Source: Reyranella sp.
GTDB lineage: Bacteria > Pseudomonadota > Alphaproteobacteria > Reyranellales > Reyranellaceae
Reading direction: 5' to 3'
NCBI RefSeq assembly: GCF_017305915.1
Contig: NZ_JAFKJN010000015.1
Location: 124,001 to 188,000 of the forward strand
Length of the DNA: 64,000 nucleotides
The position numbers and the translations under genes were made by a program. A model generated the notes under the pieces. It was given only the letters and a program-made list of their open reading frames with translations, ran no database searches and was not told the DNA's origin. The first letter of the stretch is position 1; the number at the start of each line of letters is the position of its first letter. Shown here piece by piece: positions 3,433 through 64,000 of this stretch.

Positions 3433-4320
3433 ATGACCAACCAGAAGTTCGTCATCGAGCCGCACTTCCGTCTGCAGGAGTGGGTCGCCGAGGAGAAGGG
3501 CTACTTTGCCGACGAGGGTCTCGACTACATCTTCCAGGAGAAGATCCGCGCGACCGACGGCAAGCAGCACGACCAGCAGGGCCAGAAGTCCGGCGCCTAC
3601 CAGAGCTTCGAGGCGGGCCGCACCGCCGACGTGAGCTGCGCCTGCCACTGGACGGTCAACGTCGCGGCCTCGAACGGCCACGGCAAGCTGTGGGGCGACG
3701 TCTACTCGGTGGCGCCGGCCGGCATCTTCGTGCCTGAGGGCTCGCCGATCCGCAAGCCGGAGGACCTCGCCGGCGTGCCGATCTCCGTCGGCTACCAGTC
3801 GGGCAGCCACTACGCGACCATCCAGGCGCTCGAGCAGTACCTGCCGCGGAACAGGATCAACCTGTCGTACGGCGAGGGCATGCTGTTCAAGCGGCTCGAC
3901 AACCTGCTCGAGGGCAAGAGCCAAGCCTCCACGCTGTTCAGCGGGCCGTACTACCTCGCCGAGCAGATGGGCTATCGCAAGGTGATCGACACGACCTTCA
4001 TGATCGCCTCGATGGTCACTGGCACGCCCGAGGCCGAGGACCTCAAGCGCTTCTACAATGCGCTGAAGCGGGCGCAGCGCGACATCGACCTCAGGCCGGA
4101 GAAGTACACGCACTACTACAGGAACGAGTTCCCCGACCGCTATCACGCCCTGATGGACACCCGCCGCTGGGGCCCGGGCGAGCGCATCGTGTTCGAGCCC
4201 TACACCCAGGAAGTCTTCGCCCAGTCGCGCGAATGGATCGCGCAGCGCGAGATCTTCGATACCGGCAAGGCGCCGCTGGCGACCGACAGCTACGACGCGG
4301 CGGTGCTCAGGGTGACCTGA
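3433..4320 (+). CDS. NMT1/THI5-like or SsuA-type substrate-binding protein without signal peptide
   Basis: This 295-residue protein resembles the NMT1/THI5-like periplasmic binding proteins used for aromatic, sulfonate or pyrimidine compounds. The order is WVAEEKGYFADEGLDY near residue 15, an IRKPEDLAGVPISVGYQSGS lid region near residue 105, and a C-terminal helical tail. The ATG at 3433 lies two bases after the upstream stop, and no signal peptide precedes the mature-like start. It may therefore act in the cytoplasm or be exported by another route. It is the last gene of the operon and its 3' end overlaps the convergent gene at 4290 by 31 bases. The ligand is unknown. Confidence 0.78.
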   Translation: MTNQKFVIEPHFRLQEWVAEEKGYFADEGLDYIFQEKIRATDGKQHDQQGQKSGAYQSFEAGRTADVSCACHWTVNVAASNGHGKLWGDVYSVAPAGIFVPEGSPIRKPEDLAGVPISVGYQSGSHYATIQALEQYLPRNRINLSYGEGMLFKRLDNLLEGKSQASTLFSGPYYLAEQMGYRKVIDTTFMIASMVTGTPEAEDLKRFYNALKRAQRDIDLRPEKYTHYYRNEFPDRYHALMDTRRWGPGERIVFEPYTQEVFAQSREWIAQREIFDTGKAPLATDSYDAAVLRVT

Positions 4321-5288
4321 GCCATCCGCGCCAGGCGGCGGCCGATGATCTCCTCGGCCTCGCGCATGGTGCGGTCGATCAGCTCCTTGACGGTCGGGAT
4401 GTCGTGGATCAGGCCGGCGACCATGCCGCACGACCAGGCGCCGGCATCCATCTCGCCCTGCTTCATGATGCGCGGATAGACGCCGCCGACCTCGGCGACG
4501 ATGTCCTTGAACTCGATCGCCGCGCCGAGCTCCTTCTCCTTCTCGAGCAGCCGGTCGACGGCGGCGTTCTTCAGCACCCGCTCGGTGTTGCGCAGCGGCC
4601 GCATCACCAGCCGGGTGTCGAGCTCGCTGGCGGCGACCAGCGCCTGCTTCACGTTGTCGTGGATCGGCGCCTCCTTGGTCGCCATGAAGCGCGTGCCCAT
4701 GTTCATGCCCTCGGCGCCGAGCGACAGGGCGGCGACCAGCGAGCGGCCGTCGGCCATGCCGCCAGAGGCGACGAACGGGATCTTCAGCTCCTCGGCCGCG
4801 CGCGGCAGCAGGATGAAGTTGGGCACGTCGTCCTCGCCGGGATGGCCGCCGCATTCGAAGCCGTCGACGCTGACGGCGTCGCAGCCGATCGATTCGGCCT
4901 TCAGCGAATGGCGCACCGAGGTGCATTTGTGGATCACCCTGACGCCCGCTTCCTTGAGCGCCGGCAGCCACTTCTGCGGGTTGTTGCCCGCGGTCTCGAC
5001 GATCTTCACGCCGCTCTCGATGATGGCGCGGATGTAGCCGGGGTAGTCCGGCGGCGTCAGCGCCGGCAGGAAGGTGAGGTTGACGCCGAACGGCTTGCCG
5101 GTCATCTGCCGGCAGCGCGCGATCTCCTTGGCGAGGTTCTCGGGGCTGCCCTGCGTCAGGCCGGTGATGATGCCGAGCCCTCCGGCCTGCGAAACGGCCG
5201 CGGCCATCTCGGCGAAACCGACATAATGCATGCCGCCCTGGATGATCGGGTGCTCGATGCCGAACAGCTCGGTGATGCGCGTCTTCAT
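4290..5288 (-). CDS. Nitronate monooxygenase / 2-nitropropane dioxygenase family protein
   Basis: This 332-residue FMN-dependent TIM barrel of the NPD family shows the N-terminal FGIEHPIIQGGMHYVG segment, the SVDGFECGGHPGE phosphate/flavin region near residue 150 and the GGMADGRSL loop near residue 185. The ATG at 5288 matches the usual family start; an upstream in-frame ATG at 5324 would run into the divergent gene. Such enzymes oxidise alkyl nitronates or serve as enoyl-type reductases with FMN. It is divergent from the CoA transferase at 5318 with only 29 bases between them, so the two promoters overlap. A second family member lies at 31990-32958. Confidence 0.85.
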   Translation of the reverse strand: MKTRITELFGIEHPIIQGGMHYVGFAEMAAAVSQAGGLGIITGLTQGSPENLAKEIARCRQMTGKPFGVNLTFLPALTPPDYPGYIRAIIESGVKIVETAGNNPQKWLPALKEAGVRVIHKCTSVRHSLKAESIGCDAVSVDGFECGGHPGEDDVPNFILLPRAAEELKIPFVASGGMADGRSLVAALSLGAEGMNMGTRFMATKEAPIHDNVKQALVAASELDTRLVMRPLRNTERVLKNAAVDRLLEKEKELGAAIEFKDIVAEVGGVYPRIMKQGEMDAGAWSCGMVAGLIHDIPTVKELIDRTMREAEEIIGRRLARMAQVTLSTAAS

Positions 5289-5317
5289 GGCCGCCCCTCT
5301 GATGCTATAAGGGCCGA

Positions 5318-6526
5318 ATGGCACACGGTCCCCTTCAAGGCGTCAAGGTCGTCTCCTGCTCCACCGCGCAGGCCGGCACGGTTCCCTACATGCTGATGGC
5401 CGATCTCGGCGCGGACGTGATCAAGATCGAGACGCCCAAAGGCGGCGACGGCTCGCGCGGCATGACCGTCCTGCCGGGCATGGGCAGCACCTTCTTCGAG
5501 ACCAACAATCGCGGCGTGAAGAGCGTGACCCTCAACCTCAAGGAGCCCGAGGGCCGGGCCATCCTGCACAAGCTGGTCGCCGAGGCCGACATCTTCGGCC
5601 AGAACTTCCGCCCCGGCGCGGCCGAGAAGAACGGCTTCGGCTGGGAGGAGCTGCGCAAGATCAACCCGAAGCTGGTCTACGTCTCGATCTCGGGCTACGG
5701 CACCAAGGGCCCGAACGGCCATCTGCCCGGCACCGATTCGATGGCGCAGGCGCTGGGCGGCATCGCCGAGGCCTATTCGATGCCCGGCCAGAAGATGCGC
5801 ACCGGCATCGCCTCGGTGGCCGACGAATCGACCGCCATGCTGGCGTTCGGCGGCGCGCTGGCGGCGCTGCATCACGCCCGCACCACCGGCGTCGGCCAGA
5901 AGATCGAGCTGTCGCTGCTCGGCTCGCTGGTGCGTCTGCTCGGCTGGACCTTCACCACGACGATGTGGCGCAACAAGAACCCGGTGACGGGCCAGGCGCG
6001 CGTCACCGGCACGGCGGAGCGGCCGGGCATCAGCGCCTCGTTCAACGACCGCGACGGCAAGCCGCTGGTCTTCCAGCTCACCGGGCCGGAGGACTGGCAG
6101 GACGCCATGACCTCGCTCGGCTTCCTCGACGCGCTGAAGGCCAAGGGCTTCGGCCATCTCGGCGTGATCATCGACAACGACGCCAAGCGCGAGGAGCTGC
6201 TGGCGCTGCTCGACGAGCTGTTCGCGACCGGCACGCGCGAGGACTGGGTGGGCAAGCTGCGCGGCGCCGACATCGTCTCGGCGCCGATCAACACCATGCT
6301 CGAGGCCTCCAACGATCCCGACGTGATCGCCAACGGCCATGTCACCCATGTCGAGCATCCCAAGCACGGCAAGCTCAAGGTCCACGGCACGCCCTGGCGC
6401 TTCTCCGAGACGCCGGCCAAGCCCGGCATCGCGCCCGAGCTCGGCGAGCACAACGACGCCGTGCTTGAAGCGCTCGGCTACGACAAGGCCGCCGTCGGCG
6501 ACCTGAAGAAGCGCGGCGTGATCTGA
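5318..6526 (+). CDS. CaiB/BaiF family (class III) CoA transferase
   Basis: This 402-residue protein has the class III CoA-transferase architecture: an N-terminal GVKVVSCSTAQAGTVPYMLM segment, ADLGADVIKIE around residue 35, and a PGTDSMAQALGG segment near residue 145 carrying the probable catalytic aspartate. The family moves CoA between carboxylic acids in carnitine, formate/oxalate and aromatic-acid metabolism. The gene is monocistronic and divergent from a nitronate-monooxygenase-like gene. The length is normal. The natural CoA donor and acceptor cannot be read from the sequence. Confidence 0.9.
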   Translation: MAHGPLQGVKVVSCSTAQAGTVPYMLMADLGADVIKIETPKGGDGSRGMTVLPGMGSTFFETNNRGVKSVTLNLKEPEGRAILHKLVAEADIFGQNFRPGAAEKNGFGWEELRKINPKLVYVSISGYGTKGPNGHLPGTDSMAQALGGIAEAYSMPGQKMRTGIASVADESTAMLAFGGALAALHHARTTGVGQKIELSLLGSLVRLLGWTFTTTMWRNKNPVTGQARVTGTAERPGISASFNDRDGKPLVFQLTGPEDWQDAMTSLGFLDALKAKGFGHLGVIIDNDAKREELLALLDELFATGTREDWVGKLRGADIVSAPINTMLEASNDPDVIANGHVTHVEHPKHGKLKVHGTPWRFSETPAKPGIAPELGEHNDAVLEALGYDKAAVGDLKKRGVI

Positions 6527-55745: not shown

Positions 55746-55819
55746 CTAGAGCACCGGGATGCCTGTTGTGGCAGGCACATTCCGTCCGGCTGATTCCAGC
55801 TGGCCGGAATGTGCTCTAG
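55746..55819. repeat. Palindromic extragenic element, short copy 3
   Basis: This 74-base version is bounded by CTAGAGC (55746-55752) and GCTCTAG (55813-55819) and keeps only the right hairpin. Its stem differs from copy 1 by changes on both sides (for example TATTCC/GGAATA to CATTCC/GGAATG). The right end supplies the TAG stop of the minus-strand gene at 55816. Confidence 0.88.
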
Positions 55820-57111
55820 GTAAGCACGTAGACCGACGTGCGCGCCTGCCAGTCGGTGCCGGTCCACGGCCGCGAATCCGGGCCGACGCCGCCGTGTGAT
55901 TCGACGGTGCGGCCGTTGTGGATCAGCGCGACGTGGCCGATGTTGCTGGGCGAATCCTGCGGCCGCAGGAAGGCGATGCGCACGACGCCGTCGAGGTTCT
56001 GGCCGGCGGCTACGTCGACCTTGGCGAAGCCCTGCGCGCGCACCCAGTCGTGCTGCACCACCGAGCCGTCGGGAAACTGCAGCCGCGGCGGATGCGGTGT
56101 CGCCCGCCGCAGCGCGGCGCGGATGAAGCCGCTGCAATCGACCCTGGTGAAGCCGCCGCTGCCCGGCGGCTGGGTGTCGACCGGCACGATCTTGGCGCCG
56201 AGCCCGTAGCCGACGCGCGGCGTCGACGTGAGGCAGTCTTGCAGGAACTGCTGCACGGCGGGCATGTCGATCTGCAGCGTCGGCACCGCGGCGGGCGGTG
56301 CCGCCGGGGCCGGGCCGTTGGCGGCGGCGATCGCTTCGGCGGTCACGGCGGCGGGTGCGGCCTCGTCGTCGAGGATCGGGCGCGCCGGATCCTGGTCGGC
56401 GGCTTCGGCGAGATTGGCGTTGGCGACCATCAGCGCATGCAACGGCGGCGGCGGCGCGAAATGCGCCGGCGCCAGCGCGGCCAGGCGGCTGAACTGGCCG
56501 AAGTCGGGGCCGTTGACCGCGTCGTCGTCGACATCGACGCCGGCGAGCGGCGGCACGCCGCAGGTCTGGCTGATCTTCCATTGGCGCGATTGGAAATACG
56601 TGCCGTGCTCGGCGAAGCTGCTCGAGCAGGACAGCCAGGTGTCGGTGACCAGCCCGTCCTCGACCAGGCGGCGGCAGACCAGGCCGTCGCTGTAGACGCC
56701 GATGCGGTAGGGCATGGTGCCGTCGGCGCGGGTGAATACCGCCTTCACGGCGGTGAAGTAGGGGACGATGTTGCTGGCGTAGGCCGCGCCCCGCTCGTCG
56801 TAGTCGGCGCCGAAATAGATGGTGGTGCCCTCGGGCTGGCCGACCAGCTCCTGGGCGCATTGCAGGGCGCGGGCGGCGTCGGCCTCGCCGCGCGCCTTGC
56901 TGAACCATTGCGGGGCGTTGCCCCAGAACTGGAAGACCGCCCAGATCGAGATGCCGTGCGCGTGCAGCGCCTGCGCCTCGAGCCGCGTCAGGACCTTCGA
57001 GCCCGAGCCGTAGTTGTAGTAGCGGCCGACCGCCTTGACGCCGGCGGCGGCGAGGCCCGCCGCGGACGAGGTCAGCCGCGTGCTGGCGTCGATGTATTGC
57101 CTGCTGGCCAT
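55816..57111 (-). CDS. DUF1906 glycoside-hydrolase-like domain fused to NlpC/P60-type domain
   Basis: In this 431-residue protein the first half is a Rv2525c-like (DUF1906) TIM barrel: YIDASTRLTSSAAGLAAAGV, GRYYNYGSGSK, EGTTIYFGADYDERG and PYRIGVYSDG. After a proline/alanine-rich linker the second half has a cysteine in RVDCSGFIRAALRRA near residue 330 and a histidine in GHVALIHNGRTVESHGG near residue 395, as in NlpC/P60 amidases. No signal peptide is seen, so export by a phage-like or type VI route is possible. It probably acts on peptidoglycan. Confidence 0.78.
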   Translation of the reverse strand: MASRQYIDASTRLTSSAAGLAAAGVKAVGRYYNYGSGSKVLTRLEAQALHAHGISIWAVFQFWGNAPQWFSKARGEADAARALQCAQELVGQPEGTTIYFGADYDERGAAYASNIVPYFTAVKAVFTRADGTMPYRIGVYSDGLVCRRLVEDGLVTDTWLSCSSSFAEHGTYFQSRQWKISQTCGVPPLAGVDVDDDAVNGPDFGQFSRLAALAPAHFAPPPPLHALMVANANLAEAADQDPARPILDDEAAPAAVTAEAIAAANGPAPAAPPAAVPTLQIDMPAVQQFLQDCLTSTPRVGYGLGAKIVPVDTQPPGSGGFTRVDCSGFIRAALRRATPHPPRLQFPDGSVVQHDWVRAQGFAKVDVAAGQNLDGVVRIAFLRPQDSPSNIGHVALIHNGRTVESHGGVGPDSRPWTGTDWQARTSVYVLT

Positions 57112-57448: not shown

Positions 57449-57829
57449 TCACCGGGCCACGGGTCGGCACGGCCACTTGTCGTGCAGCACCTCCAGCGCC
57501 AATCCCTTGAAGAGCTGGTTGTGCACCGACGGATAGACGGCTTCGACCTCGTCCACGACGGCCTGGACGACCCGGTAGTGCGGGATGTCGAGGGGCACGC
57601 AGGAGCTGTAGTCGTCGGGCAGTAGCTCGCCGAGATAGAGAAGGACGTCGATCGTGCCGCTGCAGAAGCGGGCCGGGGCTGAGTCCACCGTTCCCTTGCT
57701 GCGCACCAGCTCGAGGCAACCAGGCAGCATCGCCGCCGCGCTCGACTCGGATGTCGGAGGAGGAGGCTCGGCTTTGCAAGTCCCATGCAGGGCGGCGAGC
57801 GAGAGTGCCAACGCGATCGACGATCTCAT
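57449..57829 (-). CDS. Rap1a/Tai-like exported protein
   Basis: This 126-residue protein has a signal peptide (MRSSIALALSLAALHGTCKA) and the Rap1a-type pattern: FCSGTIDVLLYLGELLPDD near residue 69, SSCVPLDIPHYRVVQAVVDE, and a VHNQLFKGLALEVLHDKWPC end. Conserved cysteines fit intramolecular disulfides. Rap1a proteins are immunity proteins for type VI amidase effectors, but many members have other roles. The cell-wall-hydrolase-like gene upstream at 55816 makes an immunity role conceivable. Confidence 0.68.
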   Translation of the reverse strand: MRSSIALALSLAALHGTCKAEPPPPTSESSAAAMLPGCLELVRSKGTVDSAPARFCSGTIDVLLYLGELLPDDYSSCVPLDIPHYRVVQAVVDEVEAVYPSVHNQLFKGLALEVLHDKWPCRPVAR

Positions 57830-57971
57830 TTCCTCAGTAGGGATCGGGCCGCGCACGACGCCAGCGCCAACGGCGCGCGGCGACATGCTCAATACAACTA
57901 TGCCTGGTCCTGTTGCGCCGAGGTTACGTTGAGGCGGCGCAGCAGCGCTTCGCGCGTTCAGCGCGACGACC

Positions 57972-58448
57972 CTACAGGTTCTTCGCCAAGAAAAACCGTC
58001 TCGAAGCTATTCGTGCCAGATCCTCGAACACTTCGGAGCTTGCGTCCTTGGGTAGCCCCCAAACGACTGCATGTGACGGCTCATGCGGCAGTATGGGATC
58101 CTTATAGGAAGCAAGCGAGAGGCTGACCTTTTTGCCGGCCGCGACAATCTCGCCAGCTTGGAGAACCGCGAAAGCGCTCGTGTGCTTGATGCCGAACCCT
58201 GATGCCTTCTTCGCAAGCATCACTGCCTTGAGCTGTTCAGTAGCCCCGCCGGGATAATGCTCCAGATGGTTCACAGACAATTCACCTTCGTCTGACGACC
58301 TGAGGTGGAAGGCAGCATTGAAAACACCTCGCACCTCATTCGTGTCCGGGTCGATGTCGAGTAGGGTGGGGCGGACGTAACGACAGACGTGATCGTTGTC
58401 GTCAATTCGCGTAGTCCCCCTAGCCAAGCGAAAATCCCACCTGCTCAA
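57972..58448 (-). CDS. Unknown protein, third gene of the TIGR04255-like operon
   Basis: This protein of about 158 residues starts at a TTG (58448) inside the end of the preceding gene and contains EVRGVFNAAFHLRSSDEGEL near residue 38, then LSVNHLEHYPG and KHTSAFAVLQAGEIVAAGKK, ending EDLARIASRRFFLA. It is soluble and lower in GC than the surrounding genes. It overlaps the second operon gene by 29 bases. No family is recognised; a nucleotide- or protein-binding domain is possible. Confidence 0.6.
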   Translation of the reverse strand: MSRWDFRLARGTTRIDDNDHVCRYVRPTLLDIDPDTNEVRGVFNAAFHLRSSDEGELSVNHLEHYPGGATEQLKAVMLAKKASGFGIKHTSAFAVLQAGEIVAAGKKVSLSLASYKDPILPHEPSHAVVWGLPKDASSEVFEDLARIASRRFFLAKNL

Positions 58449-59106
58449 GGAAGGAGTAGGCCTTTACGGTGGACCCGCTGAAACTGATGATGGATGTGTC
58501 GTCACCAACGAAATGAGAAATGGCGAGACGGCAAAGATCGTTCGCTTGAAATTGAATGGTGAGTCGACGCGTATCAGCGCGCCAGCCGGCAATGACTTGG
58601 CCTGTGGCGGCCATACCCAGGGACGGCACCGTCGAGACGTTCGCGTAAATGACAAAACGTAGAAACGTCTTCATGGACGAGGCATCGAGCAGGCCGTCGC
58701 CTTCCTCCCACTGCTCGGCATCAAGTAGCCGATCGACTTGGCGATAGATCTTGGTGCGCCAGTCTGGCGTCAAGTGCATCGACACCTGGGCGGCTATCAT
58801 CTTCGCATTCGCCCGGGCATCGAACAGCTTCGCGGCGACCGGGTTCGCCTCAGGAGCGGCTATCGTCTTGGGAATCTGGATAGGTTTCGGAGCGCGCTTG
58901 CCAAACTGCCAAAGTGAAGCAACGCCGAAAGCCTGTTGATCGACGGAGTGGAAGACAAGAGGTTCCAGGAAGCCCACCGCTGAACTTGCGTAACCGGCGG
59001 CGGATGACGAAAGCCAATCTTGAAGTCGCCGGTCCGCCACGCGAAGGCCAAATCCAAATCCATCCGCTTGAGGTCGTGCAGCCTCAAAGGAGAGTTCGTG
59101 CTTCAT
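58420..59106 (-). CDS. Unknown protein, second gene of the TIGR04255-like operon
   Basis: This 228-residue protein begins MKHELSFEAARPQADGFGFG and contains RTKIYRQVDRLLDAEQWEEG near residue 121, SSMKTFLRFVIY and LGMAATGQVIAGWRADTRRL. It has no signal or membrane segment. It overlaps the first operon gene by four bases (ATGA) and the third by 29. Codon use is less GC-rich than the flanks, suggesting recent acquisition. No family recognised. Confidence 0.65.
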   Translation of the reverse strand: MKHELSFEAARPQADGFGFGLRVADRRLQDWLSSSAAGYASSAVGFLEPLVFHSVDQQAFGVASLWQFGKRAPKPIQIPKTIAAPEANPVAAKLFDARANAKMIAAQVSMHLTPDWRTKIYRQVDRLLDAEQWEEGDGLLDASSMKTFLRFVIYANVSTVPSLGMAATGQVIAGWRADTRRLTIQFQANDLCRLAISHFVGDDTSIISFSGSTVKAYSFLEQVGFSLG

Positions 59107-59864
59107 GTCCCCGCTCCGAAAAGTTGGCGCGCCTTCTCGGTGACGCACGCTTCGAAAATTTCATTCTTGGCTTGGCGCATGCGGCTCACCAGTTCCCAGA
59201 GCTCGTTTATCTTCTGGGGTACGTGATGCTGAGCCATGATATCGATGTCCAGCAGCAGCGATGCATGATTGATCAAGGCTGGTTCCAATGTGGCTGCTTG
59301 GACACGGGCAACAAGTTGATCAACTCGAAGGTCGATATCTGCGACTAACTGATAGGTACGAACCGTTGGGAAGATAGGGATATTGGGAAGGGCAGGACCC
59401 AGGACCATGTAGTCTCCCGGTACGACCGTCTCCTGAGAGGCACCGAGGGGCACATCAATCCTATTTGTGTAGCGAAGGCCAACGCTCGCTAGCTGACGAT
59501 ATCCGAGCTTCTCGCGGACTGTGTCGAAAACCTCCCGAGCTTCAGCGAGAAACTGATCCCACCCAGGGTAGGGAGCTTGATACGCAAACAGGATGCTTCT
59601 GCTTCGCGTGATGACGGTCCGTTGGTCATCGCTGCTAATTAAGCGCGCTCCCGTGTCGATGGTGTTGGGATGAGCCTGCGTTGCGGTAGCTGGGCCGTCT
59701 TTCCCGATCTCGACCGCTAGCTCGATGTCAGCTTCCGGCTTCGACTTTGGGTAGGTTCCCTGCAGAAGCTTGGGAAGCCGGTTGAGCTCAGCGTCAGTCA
59801 GCGCGCTGCCATATCGGAGCTGTAGGATAGCTTCGACGATCGGTGGCTTGGAGTATTTTTGGGG
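59103..59864 (-). CDS. TIGR04255-like family protein, first gene of the operon
   Basis: This protein of about 253 residues starts PQKYSKPPIVEAILQLRYGS, the KPPIVEA opening typical of the TIGR04255 family. A central RSRSILFAYQAPYPGWDQFL, SVGLRYTNRIDVPLG near residue 145 and a C-terminal helix with LWELVSRMRQAKNEIFEACV follow. The family has no established biochemical role. A GTG at 59864 is chosen; a GTG at 59906 lies in an AT-rich stretch that more likely holds the promoter. It heads a three-gene overlapping operon beside the prophage repressor. Confidence 0.7.
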   Translation of the reverse strand, partial: PQKYSKPPIVEAILQLRYGSALTDAELNRLPKLLQGTYPKSKPEADIELAVEIGKDGPATATQAHPNTIDTGARLISSDDQRTVITRSRSILFAYQAPYPGWDQFLAEAREVFDTVREKLGYRQLASVGLRYTNRIDVPLGASQETVVPGDYMVLGPALPNIPIFPTVRTYQLVADIDLRVDQLVARVQAATLEPALINHASLLLDIDIMAQHHVPQKINELWELVSRMRQAKNEIFEACVTEKARQLFGAGT

Positions 59865-59965
59865 CACTGTGATGAGCTGTCGATTGCGGCAAATATATAT
59901 GCACACATTCCATGGCTACAACCATGGAGCCGTCAGGGACGCGCGTGACCGAGTCCACGGGCTAC

Positions 59966-60619
59966 CTACCCCACCCGCTTCTCGCTGATCATCAGGGCCT
60001 TGCTCCATTTGGCCTTGGGCAGGTCGAAGTCCTTGGCCGGGTTGAACTGGCGGACGCGCCATGCGGTCGAGCCGGTGCGGAGCAGCCGCTTCACCAGCGC
60101 GAGGATGGTGCCGTCCTCCTGGGTCTGCAGGAAGACGTGGTCCTTGCCGGCGGTCGGCAGCAGGCTCGGGTTCACCACCACCTGGTCGCCGTGCTCGATC
60201 GCCGGGCTCATCGAATGGCCGATCACGTAGAAGGCGAACGGCGCCTTCACGCCCTGCATGCGCTCGCTGCGCCGGATCCAGTCGACCGGCTCGTTGACCA
60301 GCACCATCGCGCCGTCGCTGCCCGCCTCGGCGCTCGCCCACACCGGGATGTCGGGCCGGCCGGGCTGGTTGGGCACCGGGCTCATCACCGCCAGCGGCGC
60401 CGCGCCGGGCACGGGGATGCCGGCCAGCCGGACCAGCAGCGCCGGGTCGAGCTCGAGCTTCTCCGCCAGCGCCGCCATCTTGCGCTGGTCGGGGACGTTC
60501 TTGCCCGATTCCCACTGGTTAACCGCGGATTTCGAGATGCCGAAGTAAGCGGCCAGCGCGACCTGGGACATGCCCTTGGCCTCGCGCGCCGCGCGGATCG
60601 TATCGCCGAGCTCTGACAT
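59966..60619 (-). CDS. Prophage CI/LexA-like repressor (S24 peptidase)
   Basis: This 217-residue protein has an N-terminal HTH (LGDTIRAAREAKGMSQVALA, then FGISKSAVNQWESGKN) and a C-terminal S24 peptidase domain. The serine is in VIGHSMSPAIEHGD near residue 137 and the lysine in ILALVKRLL near residue 175, with an Ala-Gly-type cleavage region (SAEAGSD) between. Self-cleavage after DNA damage would induce the prophage. GGAAAG precedes the ATG at 60619. It is divergent from the early lytic-type genes across a 72-base AT-rich region. Confidence 0.88.
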   Translation of the reverse strand: MSELGDTIRAAREAKGMSQVALAAYFGISKSAVNQWESGKNVPDQRKMAALAEKLELDPALLVRLAGIPVPGAAPLAVMSPVPNQPGRPDIPVWASAEAGSDGAMVLVNEPVDWIRRSERMQGVKAPFAFYVIGHSMSPAIEHGDQVVVNPSLLPTAGKDHVFLQTQEDGTILALVKRLLRTGSTAWRVRQFNPAKDFDLPKAKWSKALMISEKRVG

Positions 60620-60691
60620 GTGTATATCTTTCCTTGACAACTGCTTAACGTCTCGCCTATTGTTAATTAACTATCAATCAATTAGTAATCG
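60620..60691. promoter_or_regulatory. Prophage immunity region with divergent promoters
   Basis: This AT-rich gap between repressor and first rightward gene contains TTGACA (60634-60639) and TATTGT (60658-60663) 18 bases apart on the plus strand. A palindrome GTTAATTAAC lies at 60662-60671 and a TTAAC repeat nearby. These are likely repressor operators. Confidence 0.65.
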
Positions 60692-61044: not shown

Positions 61045-61917
61045 ATGACCGAGCCCCTCGTCGAGCCCCTCGTCGAGCCCCTCGTCATGGCGCCAATGGT
61101 GCCGCCGGAGGTCGATCTGCGCGGCATGCCCTACATGCCGCTGTTCGGCGACCGGCTGTTCAAATCGACCACCTGGATCGAAGCACGGCCCGAGGCGCGC
61201 GCCGCCGCGCTGCAGCTCTATTGGCATGCCTTCGCGCACGAGGTGCCGGCAGCATCGCTGCCCGACAACGAGCGCGTGCTCGCCGACCATGCCGGCCTCA
61301 GCCTGAAGGTCTTTCGCCGCGCCCGCGTCCAGGCGCTGCGCGGCTGGCTGAAGTGCAGCGACGGTCGTCTCTATCATCCTGTTCTCGCGGAAATCGCAAA
61401 CGAGGCGTGGAGCGCGCGCATCAGCCATCGCGCCCGGACCTTGAAATGGCGAGAGAAATCCCGCGGCGTGACGGTCACGAGTCCGCCTTGTGACACGCGA
61501 AAGGGAAAGGGAGAGAGAAAGGGAGAGGGACTCACTGCTGCCGCAGCAGAAGGCGACCGGGTCGATCGCGCCTTCGCGCTGTGGCAGGAGGCGGCGGCGC
61601 GCGAGGGCTGGCCCGAGGTGATGTTCCTGAACTCGGTGCGGCGCTGGAAGCTCGGCCAGCGGCTCGCCGAGGCGGGCGGGCTCGAGGGCTGGTGCGCGGC
61701 GCTCGCCGCCGCGTCCGACGCCGGCTTCCTCAAAGGCCTCGACGGAAGCTTCCATCGCTGGTTCGATCTCGACTGGCTGCTCGACGAGCAGAAATTCACC
61801 CGTCTCCTGGAGGGTCGCTATGCCCGACGACATCGCCCGGTTGCCGATGCTGGCAGCGGACTCGACGCAGCCCTTGCCGAGCTCGGTCGCGCGGGCGCTG
61901 CGCCAGGCCGAGGATGA
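61045..61917 (+). CDS. Phage replication-type protein (DUF1376-like)
   Basis: In this 290-residue protein, after an N-terminal EPLV repeat tail, MPYMPLFGDRLFKSTTWIEA and ALQLYWHAFAHEVPAASLPD match the DUF1376 pattern seen in phage replisome-organiser proteins. A charged middle (TRKGKGERKGEGL) and a C-terminal helical part (EGWPEVMFLNSVRRWKLGQR) follow. The first 12 residues after the start come from a perfect 12-base tandem repeat. It overlaps the next gene by 98 bases. Confidence 0.72.
   Translation: MTEPLVEPLVEPLVMAPMVPPEVDLRGMPYMPLFGDRLFKSTTWIEARPEARAAALQLYWHAFAHEVPAASLPDNERVLADHAGLSLKVFRRARVQALRGWLKCSDGRLYHPVLAEIANEAWSARISHRARTLKWREKSRGVTVTSPPCDTRKGKGERKGEGLTAAAAEGDRVDRAFALWQEAAAREGWPEVMFLNSVRRWKLGQRLAEAGGLEGWCAALAAASDAGFLKGLDGSFHRWFDLDWLLDEQKFTRLLEGRYARRHRPVADAGSGLDAALAELGRAGAAPGRG
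61051..61086. repeat. 12-base tandem repeat in the DUF1376-like gene
   Basis: Three perfect copies of GAGCCCCTCGTC encode Glu-Pro-Leu-Val three times at the N-terminus. Slippage would change the length in frame. Confidence 0.9.
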
Positions 61918-62796: not shown

Positions 62797-63038
62797 GCCG
62801 CAAGCCCAAATCCACCGGCAAGCCCGAGATCAAGGACGCCGCGCTCGAGTACGCCGACGAGGCGGTGAGGACGCTGGTCGAGCTGATGCGCAACAGCGGC
62901 AGCGACCCGGTGCGCATTGCCGCCGCGCGCGAGCTGATCGACCGCGCCTACGGCAAGCCCAAGGCCGAGCCGGCGGCGGGCGAGGGCCAGAGCCTGCAGG
63001 AGATGGTGCGGGCCGCATTCGAGCGGGAGGATCCATGA
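62793..63038 (+). CDS. Phage small protein, terminase small-subunit-like
   Basis: This 81-residue protein starting at a GTG (62793) contains EAVRTLVELMRNSGSDPVRI then AAARELIDRAYGKPKAEPAA, a pattern common in small phage proteins directly upstream of large terminases. Its stop overlaps the terminase start (ATGA). It probably binds DNA and assists packaging; this is by position and pattern only. Confidence 0.62.
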   Translation: MSRKPKSTGKPEIKDAALEYADEAVRTLVELMRNSGSDPVRIAAARELIDRAYGKPKAEPAAGEGQSLQEMVRAAFEREDP

Positions 63039-64000
63039 AAGAGGCCTTCGAGAAATGGAAGGACGACCCGACGCGCTTCGTGCGCAACGTGTTCGGGGTG
63101 CGGCCCGATCCGTGGCAGAACGACGTGCTGCGCGCCTTCCCCAAGGCGCCACGGCTCGCCATGAAGGCGTGCAAGGGGCCGGGCAAGACGACGGTGATGG
63201 CGTGGCTCGCCTGGAACTTCCTGCTGACGCGCGACGACCCGAAGATCGCGGCGACCTCGATCAGCGGCGACAACCTCTCGGACAATCTGTGGGCCGAGAT
63301 GGCGAAGTGGCAGGCCAGGTCGCCGCTGCTGACGGCGATGTTCGAATGGACCAAGACCCGCATCTTCAGCCGCGAGCGGCCCGAGACCTGGTGGATGAGC
63401 GCGCGGACGTGGGCGCGCACCGCCGACAAGGCGCGGCTCGGCCAGACGCTGGCCGGCCTGCATTCGGACTACATCCTGTTCATCCTCGACGAGAGCGGCG
63501 GCATTCCCGACGCGGTGATGGCGAGCGCCGAGGCGGCGCTGTCGTCGTGCGTCGAGGGCCACATCGTGCAGGCCGGCAACCCGACCCATCTCGACGGCCC
63601 GCTGTGGCGCGCCTGCACCAGCGAGCGGCGGCTGTGGCACGTCACCGAGATCTCTGCCGATCCCGACGATCCCAAGCGCGCGACGCGGGTCAAGGCTGCG
63701 TGGGCGCGCGAGCAGATCGAGAAGTACGGCCGCGACAATCCCTGGGTGCTGGTCAACGTGTTCGGCCGGTTCCCGCCGGCCTCGCTCGACACGCTGATCG
63801 GGCCCGACGAATGCCGCGCCGCGACGACCCGCGCCTGGCGGCCGGAGGACATCGCCGGCGCCGCGCGCATCCTGGGCGTCGACGTCGCGCGCTTCGGCGA
63901 CGATGCCAGCGTGATCTTCCCGCGCCAGGGGCTGGTCGCCTTCCCGCCGCTGCGCTTCCGCAACATCGACGGCACGCAGGGCGCGGGCGCGGTGGCGCGC
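63035..64000 (+). CDS. Phage terminase large subunit (5' part)
   Basis: The first 322 residues of a large terminase are present, cut by the window end. Walker A is KACKGPGKTTVMAW near residue 47, Walker B is YILFILDESGGIPD near residue 146, and the start of the nuclease domain is LGVDVARFGDDASV near residue 287 with its first aspartates. It packages phage DNA into proheads using ATP. It continues beyond 64000, so structural phage genes are expected to the right. Confidence 0.9.
   Translation, partial: MKEAFEKWKDDPTRFVRNVFGVRPDPWQNDVLRAFPKAPRLAMKACKGPGKTTVMAWLAWNFLLTRDDPKIAATSISGDNLSDNLWAEMAKWQARSPLLTAMFEWTKTRIFSRERPETWWMSARTWARTADKARLGQTLAGLHSDYILFILDESGGIPDAVMASAEAALSSCVEGHIVQAGNPTHLDGPLWRACTSERRLWHVTEISADPDDPKRATRVKAAWAREQIEKYGRDNPWVLVNVFGRFPPASLDTLIGPDECRAATTRAWRPEDIAGAARILGVDVARFGDDASVIFPRQGLVAFPPLRFRNIDGTQGAGAVAR

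Follow-up and report, generated by a model that had tools for sequence, protein, structure and literature searches.

A candidate toxin-antitoxin-type operon with a TIGR04255 protein at its head on a prophage remnant of Reyranella sp.

A three-gene operon located on a prophage remnant of Reyranella sp. is proposed to be a horizontally acquired tripartite module of the toxin-antitoxin type, in which the product of the third gene would act as the effector and the activity would probably be directed against phages; the probability of this reading is put at about 0.5. The operon occupies positions 59906–57972 of the window, the stretch of 64,000 nucleotides that was analysed as a whole, and consists of three minus-strand open reading frames. 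The operon and the genes that define its surroundings are arranged as follows.

55816..57111, minus strand: endolysin-like glycoside hydrolase, left marker of the remnant (PF08924, 98 bits; phrog_13480, endolysin)
57972..58448, minus strand: gene 3, 158 aa, predicted ADP-ribosyltransferase-like fold (AlphaFold2 model, VIA-align, residue conservation)
58420..59106, minus strand: gene 2, middle protein of 228 aa without a known family (homologues in 42 loci)
59103..59906, minus strand: gene 1, TIGR04255 family protein of 267 aa (NCBIfam TIGR04255.1)
59966..60640, minus strand: prophage repressor, HTH and S24 peptidase (PF01381, HTH_3; PF00717, Peptidase_S24; phrog_4)
61045..61917, plus strand: phage replication protein, DUF1376 (phrog_22470, PF07120)
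63035..64000, continuing to 64453 in the contig, plus strand: large terminase subunit, right marker of the remnant (phrog_2)

The three frames form a compact unit, as an earlier note on this DNA had described, with overlaps of 4 bases between genes 1 and 2 and of 29 bases between genes 2 and 3. Their coding status is certain because all three frames are conserved in numerous genomes, with some 30% identity. The low GC content mentioned in the same note was also found. The operon has a value of 0.562, whereas every other 1,935-base stretch of the window reaches at least 0.632 and their mean is 0.685 (sd 0.019), so that the operon deviates by z = −6.7 and has a foreign look. Similarly, GC3 is 0.60–0.64 in the operon genes and 0.94 in the adjoining repressor. 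For genes 2 and 3, searches of Pfam, NCBIfam and PHROGs returned no family and PADLOC gave only noise, with a DpdJ score of 11 bits (E 0.025) for gene 2. The profiles of all three genes returned nothing meaningful from the PDB. The view that no recognised domain exists beyond TIGR04255 is thus correct for the sequences of genes 2 and 3, but not for the predicted structure of gene 3, which is ADP-ribosyltransferase-like. Tripartite toxin-antitoxin and abortive infection systems are a known kind; an operon with a TIGR04255 head is undescribed in the sources searched. No PADLOC model was matched by gene 1 or its 45 homologues, and the open-access papers searched do not mention TIGR04255, although such operons may have been described elsewhere under a different name.

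The operon is conserved as a unit. An alignment-based scan with gene 1 recovered 46 loci from genomes of GTDB and another 8 from contigs of IMG/VR. The independent loci are slightly fewer than these counts because some records, such as L068/L097 and L079/L098, are shared by the two collections. The same three-gene order was found in 42 of the 49 loci with room downstream, where homologues of genes 2 and 3 follow on the same strand with overlapping or near-abutting spacing, and seven of the eight viral contigs carry all three genes in order. The hosts of the conserved cassette belong to the Alpha-, Beta-, Gamma- and Zetaproteobacteria. In one of the loci (L070:1131-2223) gene 3 is split into two open reading frames of 91 and 97 aa, likely through a frameshift or a sequencing error in this metagenome-assembled genome. 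Within the Reyranellaceae, the contig JALHMM010000010 of a metagenome-assembled genome encodes the three proteins at 29, 32 and 38% identity, from genes that here, too, overlap or abut. Homologues of the operon genes were found only by alignment-based searches; searches for close relatives gave nothing for gene 2 in genome contigs, for gene 1 in viral contigs or for genes 2 and 3 in plasmids.

The distribution of the operon is sporadic. Of the 75 genomes that represent the family, 6 contain TIGR04255 and 2 contain gene 2; in the phylum sample TIGR04255 is present in 30 of 398 genomes. Of the two outcomes that the earlier note had named as speaking against it, the first, that the three genes do not occur together elsewhere, fails on the conserved loci, and the second, that they are core housekeeping genes, fails on these frequencies; a housekeeping role is rejected on the sporadic distribution. 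An ordinary core or metabolic operon with no role in conflict is likewise very improbable in view of the same rarity, the foreign GC content and the random insertion sites. In the Zetaproteobacteria TIGR04255 occurs in 10 of 78 genomes and is commoner than it is across the phylum sample.

A prophage remnant of about 8.6 kb (55816–64453) surrounds the operon and extends from the endolysin-like gene to the terminase gene, whose DNA matches terminases of Xanthomonas phages. Genes for capsid or tail proteins were not seen in the remnant, and directly outside both markers lie genes of chromosomal type (a PLD protein, a MORN-like protein and a GDSL hydrolase). The repressor placed next to the operon by the earlier note is real, as judged from its HTH_3, Peptidase_S24 and PHROG 4 matches, and it does adjoin the operon. 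The location is, however, within the remnant, flanked by the endolysin-like gene and the terminase, and not merely beside a prophage. A 147-aa open reading frame between the operon and the endolysin-like gene (57449–57892, minus strand) has a sub-threshold match to the Rap1a immunity protein (20.6 bits, cut-off 27.7).

This position brings to mind the cI-rexA-rexB region of phage lambda, where accessory genes also lie codirectionally and immediately behind a prophage repressor. Gene 1 starts 59 bases downstream of the repressor on the same strand and no terminator-like site was found between the two genes. Together with the presence of the operon in 7 viral contigs, this arrangement favours superinfection-exclusion cargo of the lambda Rex kind, which would comprise no classical toxin, would be expressed from the repressor transcript and would exclude other phages. 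That explanation is nevertheless considered unlikely, as a repressor or phage neighbours are absent from most of the homologous operons and phage genome records contain little or no TIGR04255. The few phage neighbours and the scarcity in phage records make the prophage position incidental to the basic function of the operon. No sequence relation to the rex genes is claimed and, in contrast to these, the cassette is also found away from prophages. Across the relatives, 120 flanking proteins match 108 Pfam families, none of them more than twice, and include two integrases and few terminases. These neighbours show no enrichment for defence or phage functions, which speaks against the preferred anti-phage reading as well. 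Given their heterogeneity, the idea that the operon generally resides in defence islands or prophages was rejected: neither the edge of a prophage, the position that the earlier note had called typical of defence or superinfection-exclusion cargo, nor a defence island is its usual location.

Tight three-gene operons headed by TIGR04255 also occur elsewhere, in genomes and in plasmids, and annotated examples come from Thermus, Vibrio, Crinalium, Mycobacterium, Acinetobacter, Klebsiella and Gloeocapsopsis. A Pfam scan that covered 79 second and third genes of such operons revealed that the recognised third genes are toxins, namely PemK/MazF (L017, E 1e-18), Zeta (L010, E 3e-12) and HEPN (L009, E 4e-6), with one weaker Tox-HDC match (E 7e-4). 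Where the middle gene is recognised, it encodes a helix-turn-helix protein, in some cases with an Xre-like antitoxin domain. Such operons combine a constant head with a control protein and a toxin that can be exchanged, which is the pattern of a tripartite toxin-antitoxin system. By analogy, the known toxins in third place of these sister operons support a toxin-antitoxin character for the Reyranella operon. More broadly, and with slightly less than even odds, TIGR04255 would be the constant part of a large, undescribed and polymorphic class of three-gene operons, whose members differ in their exchangeable second (control) and third (effector) genes and of which the window operon represents a widespread proteobacterial subtype. 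The effectors of such a class would comprise ADP-ribosyltransferase-fold proteins of the R-S-H/Y type, HEPN and PemK/MazF RNases, Zeta kinases and a third-gene family with an 'SQxCD' motif.

The AlphaFold2 model of gene 3, obtained with 28 aligned sequences, has a pLDDT of 94.4 and a pTM of 0.88. When VIA-align was run over candidates supplied by Foldseek, the best 25 rows all belonged to the ADP-ribosyltransferase superfamily, and the next, unrelated row appeared at Z 3.0. The best structural match is KptA/Tpt1, with a Z of 7.1, a value that taken singly is not decisive, and an rmsd of 2.8 over 95 residues; the other matches include AvrPphF, pierisin-1, mosquitocidal toxin, DarT (Z 4.5), PltA and pertussis S1. 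A shared fold is likely because one superfamily alone stands well above the rest, over nearly the whole chain. Foldseek alone gave no significant match for gene 3 in the PDB and the sequence profile gave no hit there, while BFVD returned no named relative and one unnamed viral protein of 149 aa (prob 0.99, TM 0.42, E 0.009). Since hhalign against the KptA, RES and DarT families produced nothing above reversed and unrelated controls, only fold similarity is claimed. Thus, an ADP-ribosyltransferase fold is predicted for gene 3 with good confidence, and the claim concerns the fold rather than the activity.

In ADP-ribosyltransferases of the R-S-E class the Arg, Ser and Glu residues are carried on core strands 1, 2 and 5, respectively. 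R23, S58 and H126 of gene 3 fall on the corresponding strands of the model, a placement that was made from its secondary structure and general knowledge of the fold and not from a superposition. Among 45 homologues, R23 is kept in 42, S58 in 44 and R50 in 38. Position 126 is occupied by His in 35, by Tyr in 9 and by Lys in one, so that His/Tyr replaces the usual catalytic Glu at the third position. Without the canonical Glu, gene 3 may be inactive or may not be ADP-ribosylating. The replacement, and the fact that fold similarity is no proof of activity, would fit a catalytically dead fold that senses NAD+ or ADP-ribose, the operon being a regulatory switch with TIGR04255 or gene 2 as the active component. 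This alternative is quite unlikely: the retention of Arg in 42/45 and Ser in 44/45 sequences is unlike a decayed enzyme, and gene 1 has no confident catalytic fold match.

Tpt1, too, lacks the catalytic Glu of classical ADP-ribosyltransferases. This resemblance, together with the position of KptA/Tpt1 as the best fold match, would allow gene 3 to be a Tpt1/KptA-like NAD+-dependent phosphotransferase, or an enzyme ADP-ribosylating phosphate ends, that serves nucleic-acid repair or RNA-end processing and is not a toxin. Such a role is decidedly unlikely, given that gene 3 and KptA have no sequence-profile link, that the genome already encodes a KptA, that a ligase, kinase or phosphatase partner is absent and that the third slot is held by toxins in the sister operons. 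Gene 3 also differs from KptA/Tpt1 in length (158 versus about 180 residues) and in its operon. The preferred interpretation of gene 3 remains that of the effector of a toxin-antitoxin-type module.

Gene 1 is a full-length member of the NCBIfam family TIGR04255 ('sporadTIGR04255'), matching the TIGR04255.1 profile over positions 1–252 of 252 with 109.4 bits, above the cut-off of 30. The family is defined by one protein, and the available description contains neither the context of a tripartite operon nor effector partners. The true start of gene 1 is probably the GTG at 59867 (254 aa) rather than 59906, because the homologues begin there and residues 1–6 of the model have a pLDDT below 50. The AlphaFold2 model (pLDDT 90.7) comprises two alpha/beta half repeats in a predicted tandem saddle fold, which VIA-align relates to guanidino kinases and TATA-binding protein (TBP) at Z 7–8.5. 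This likeness appears to reflect a common arrangement only, and the model provides no confident match to a catalytic fold. An AdoMetDC/prozyme fold suggested by Foldseek (E 7.5e-5) was rejected as untrustworthy, with a TM of 0.28 and an rmsd of 18.

Conservation of gene 2 is found mainly in its C-terminal two thirds, with W147 and G183 in 42 of 42 sequences and D139 and K116 in 41 of 42 (residues counted from an open reading frame that starts 14 residues upstream of the ATG). The C-terminal part bears a remote similarity to the 'GWDGY' proteins encoded in the middle of other TIGR04255 operons (hhalign P = 3e-4, probability 38%). By analogy with the middle genes of the sister operons, gene 2 may occupy the antitoxin slot.

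The nearest described functional analogue of the operon is CmdTAC, in which an ADP-ribosyltransferase toxin is freed when a phage capsid protein draws a SecB-like chaperone away (PMC11618068). Both are three-gene modules that combine an effector of ADP-ribosyltransferase fold, putative in the present operon, with two control proteins, and in TAC systems, too, the toxin is variable. CmdT by itself does not fold and depends on its partner for this (PMC11618068). CmdT displays an H-Y-[E,D,Q] triad in an exotoxin-A-like fold and the gene order is T-A-C (PMC11618068), whereas gene 3 has R-S-[H/Y] and the putative effector comes last. In addition, no SecB-like component was detected in the operon: the structural matches listed for gene 1 include no SecB entry, an absence from the list that does not exclude a likeness to SecB. 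The operon is thus comparable to CmdTAC and is not a member of it.

Similarly, DarTG resembles the operon, as interpreted here, in having an effector of ADP-ribosyltransferase fold, with DarT among the structural matches of gene 3, but it consists of two genes and gene 3 has no profile similarity to DarT. A Pfam scan (E up to 1) of the three proteins detected no DarT domain and no macrodomain. RES-Xre systems associate an ADP-ribosyltransferase-like toxin with a regulatory partner. Gene 3 has no RES profile similarity and the operon has no Xre-like gene, although the sister TIGR04255 operons do have HTH/Xre-like middle genes.

From these comparisons we infer a scheme in which gene 3 would probably use NAD+ to modify nucleic acid or protein and thereby stop growth. 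Gene 1, as the constant component, would probably silence the effector as a sensor, scaffold or chaperone, and gene 2 would serve as antitoxin or adaptor. Infection or another stress would disturb the complex and release the effector. The operon would likely be co-transcribed with the repressor in the lysogen, like rexAB behind lambda cI, and the lysogen would be protected by abortive infection or superinfection exclusion. The scheme predicts that the third gene is toxic, that its toxicity requires R23 and S58 and is neutralised by the upstream genes, and that a lysogen from which the operon is deleted loses its protection. If it is true, TIGR04255, known only by a number and a 'sporadic' distribution, has a role that can be put to the test, that of a control component common to many toxin operons, and the effectors of bacterial immunity include a new family of ADP-ribosyltransferase-like proteins.

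A search of E. coli genomes for DNA matching the TIGR04255-HTH variant of Klebsiella returned nothing. On the large Klebsiella pneumoniae plasmid pVA126-339, a TIGR04255-HTH-278 aa operon (L106, locus 3992-6256) lies near a tape measure gene, suggesting that this plasmid is a phage-plasmid. Its third gene belongs to the unnamed 'SQxCD' family, which ends many TIGR04255 operons (L005, L015, L016, L018, L019, L025, L027, L031 and L104-L107), has no Pfam model and carries a '[ST][QNH]xC[DS]'-like motif, as in ISQDCDIA and LSNTCDMS; some of its members appear PemK-like by eye, with a 'GDI' start. Besides the Pfam-supported L009, third genes adjoining TIGR04255 in L088:6284-6646 and L033:544-921 are HEPN-like by eye ('AVSRAYFAAFCHARNFA'). 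The third genes in L013:243-944 (minus strand) and L014:2756-3400 (plus strand) contain His/Cys motifs ('HVGIVY ... GLTCATF') and resemble the cysteine peptidase or Tox-HDC type.
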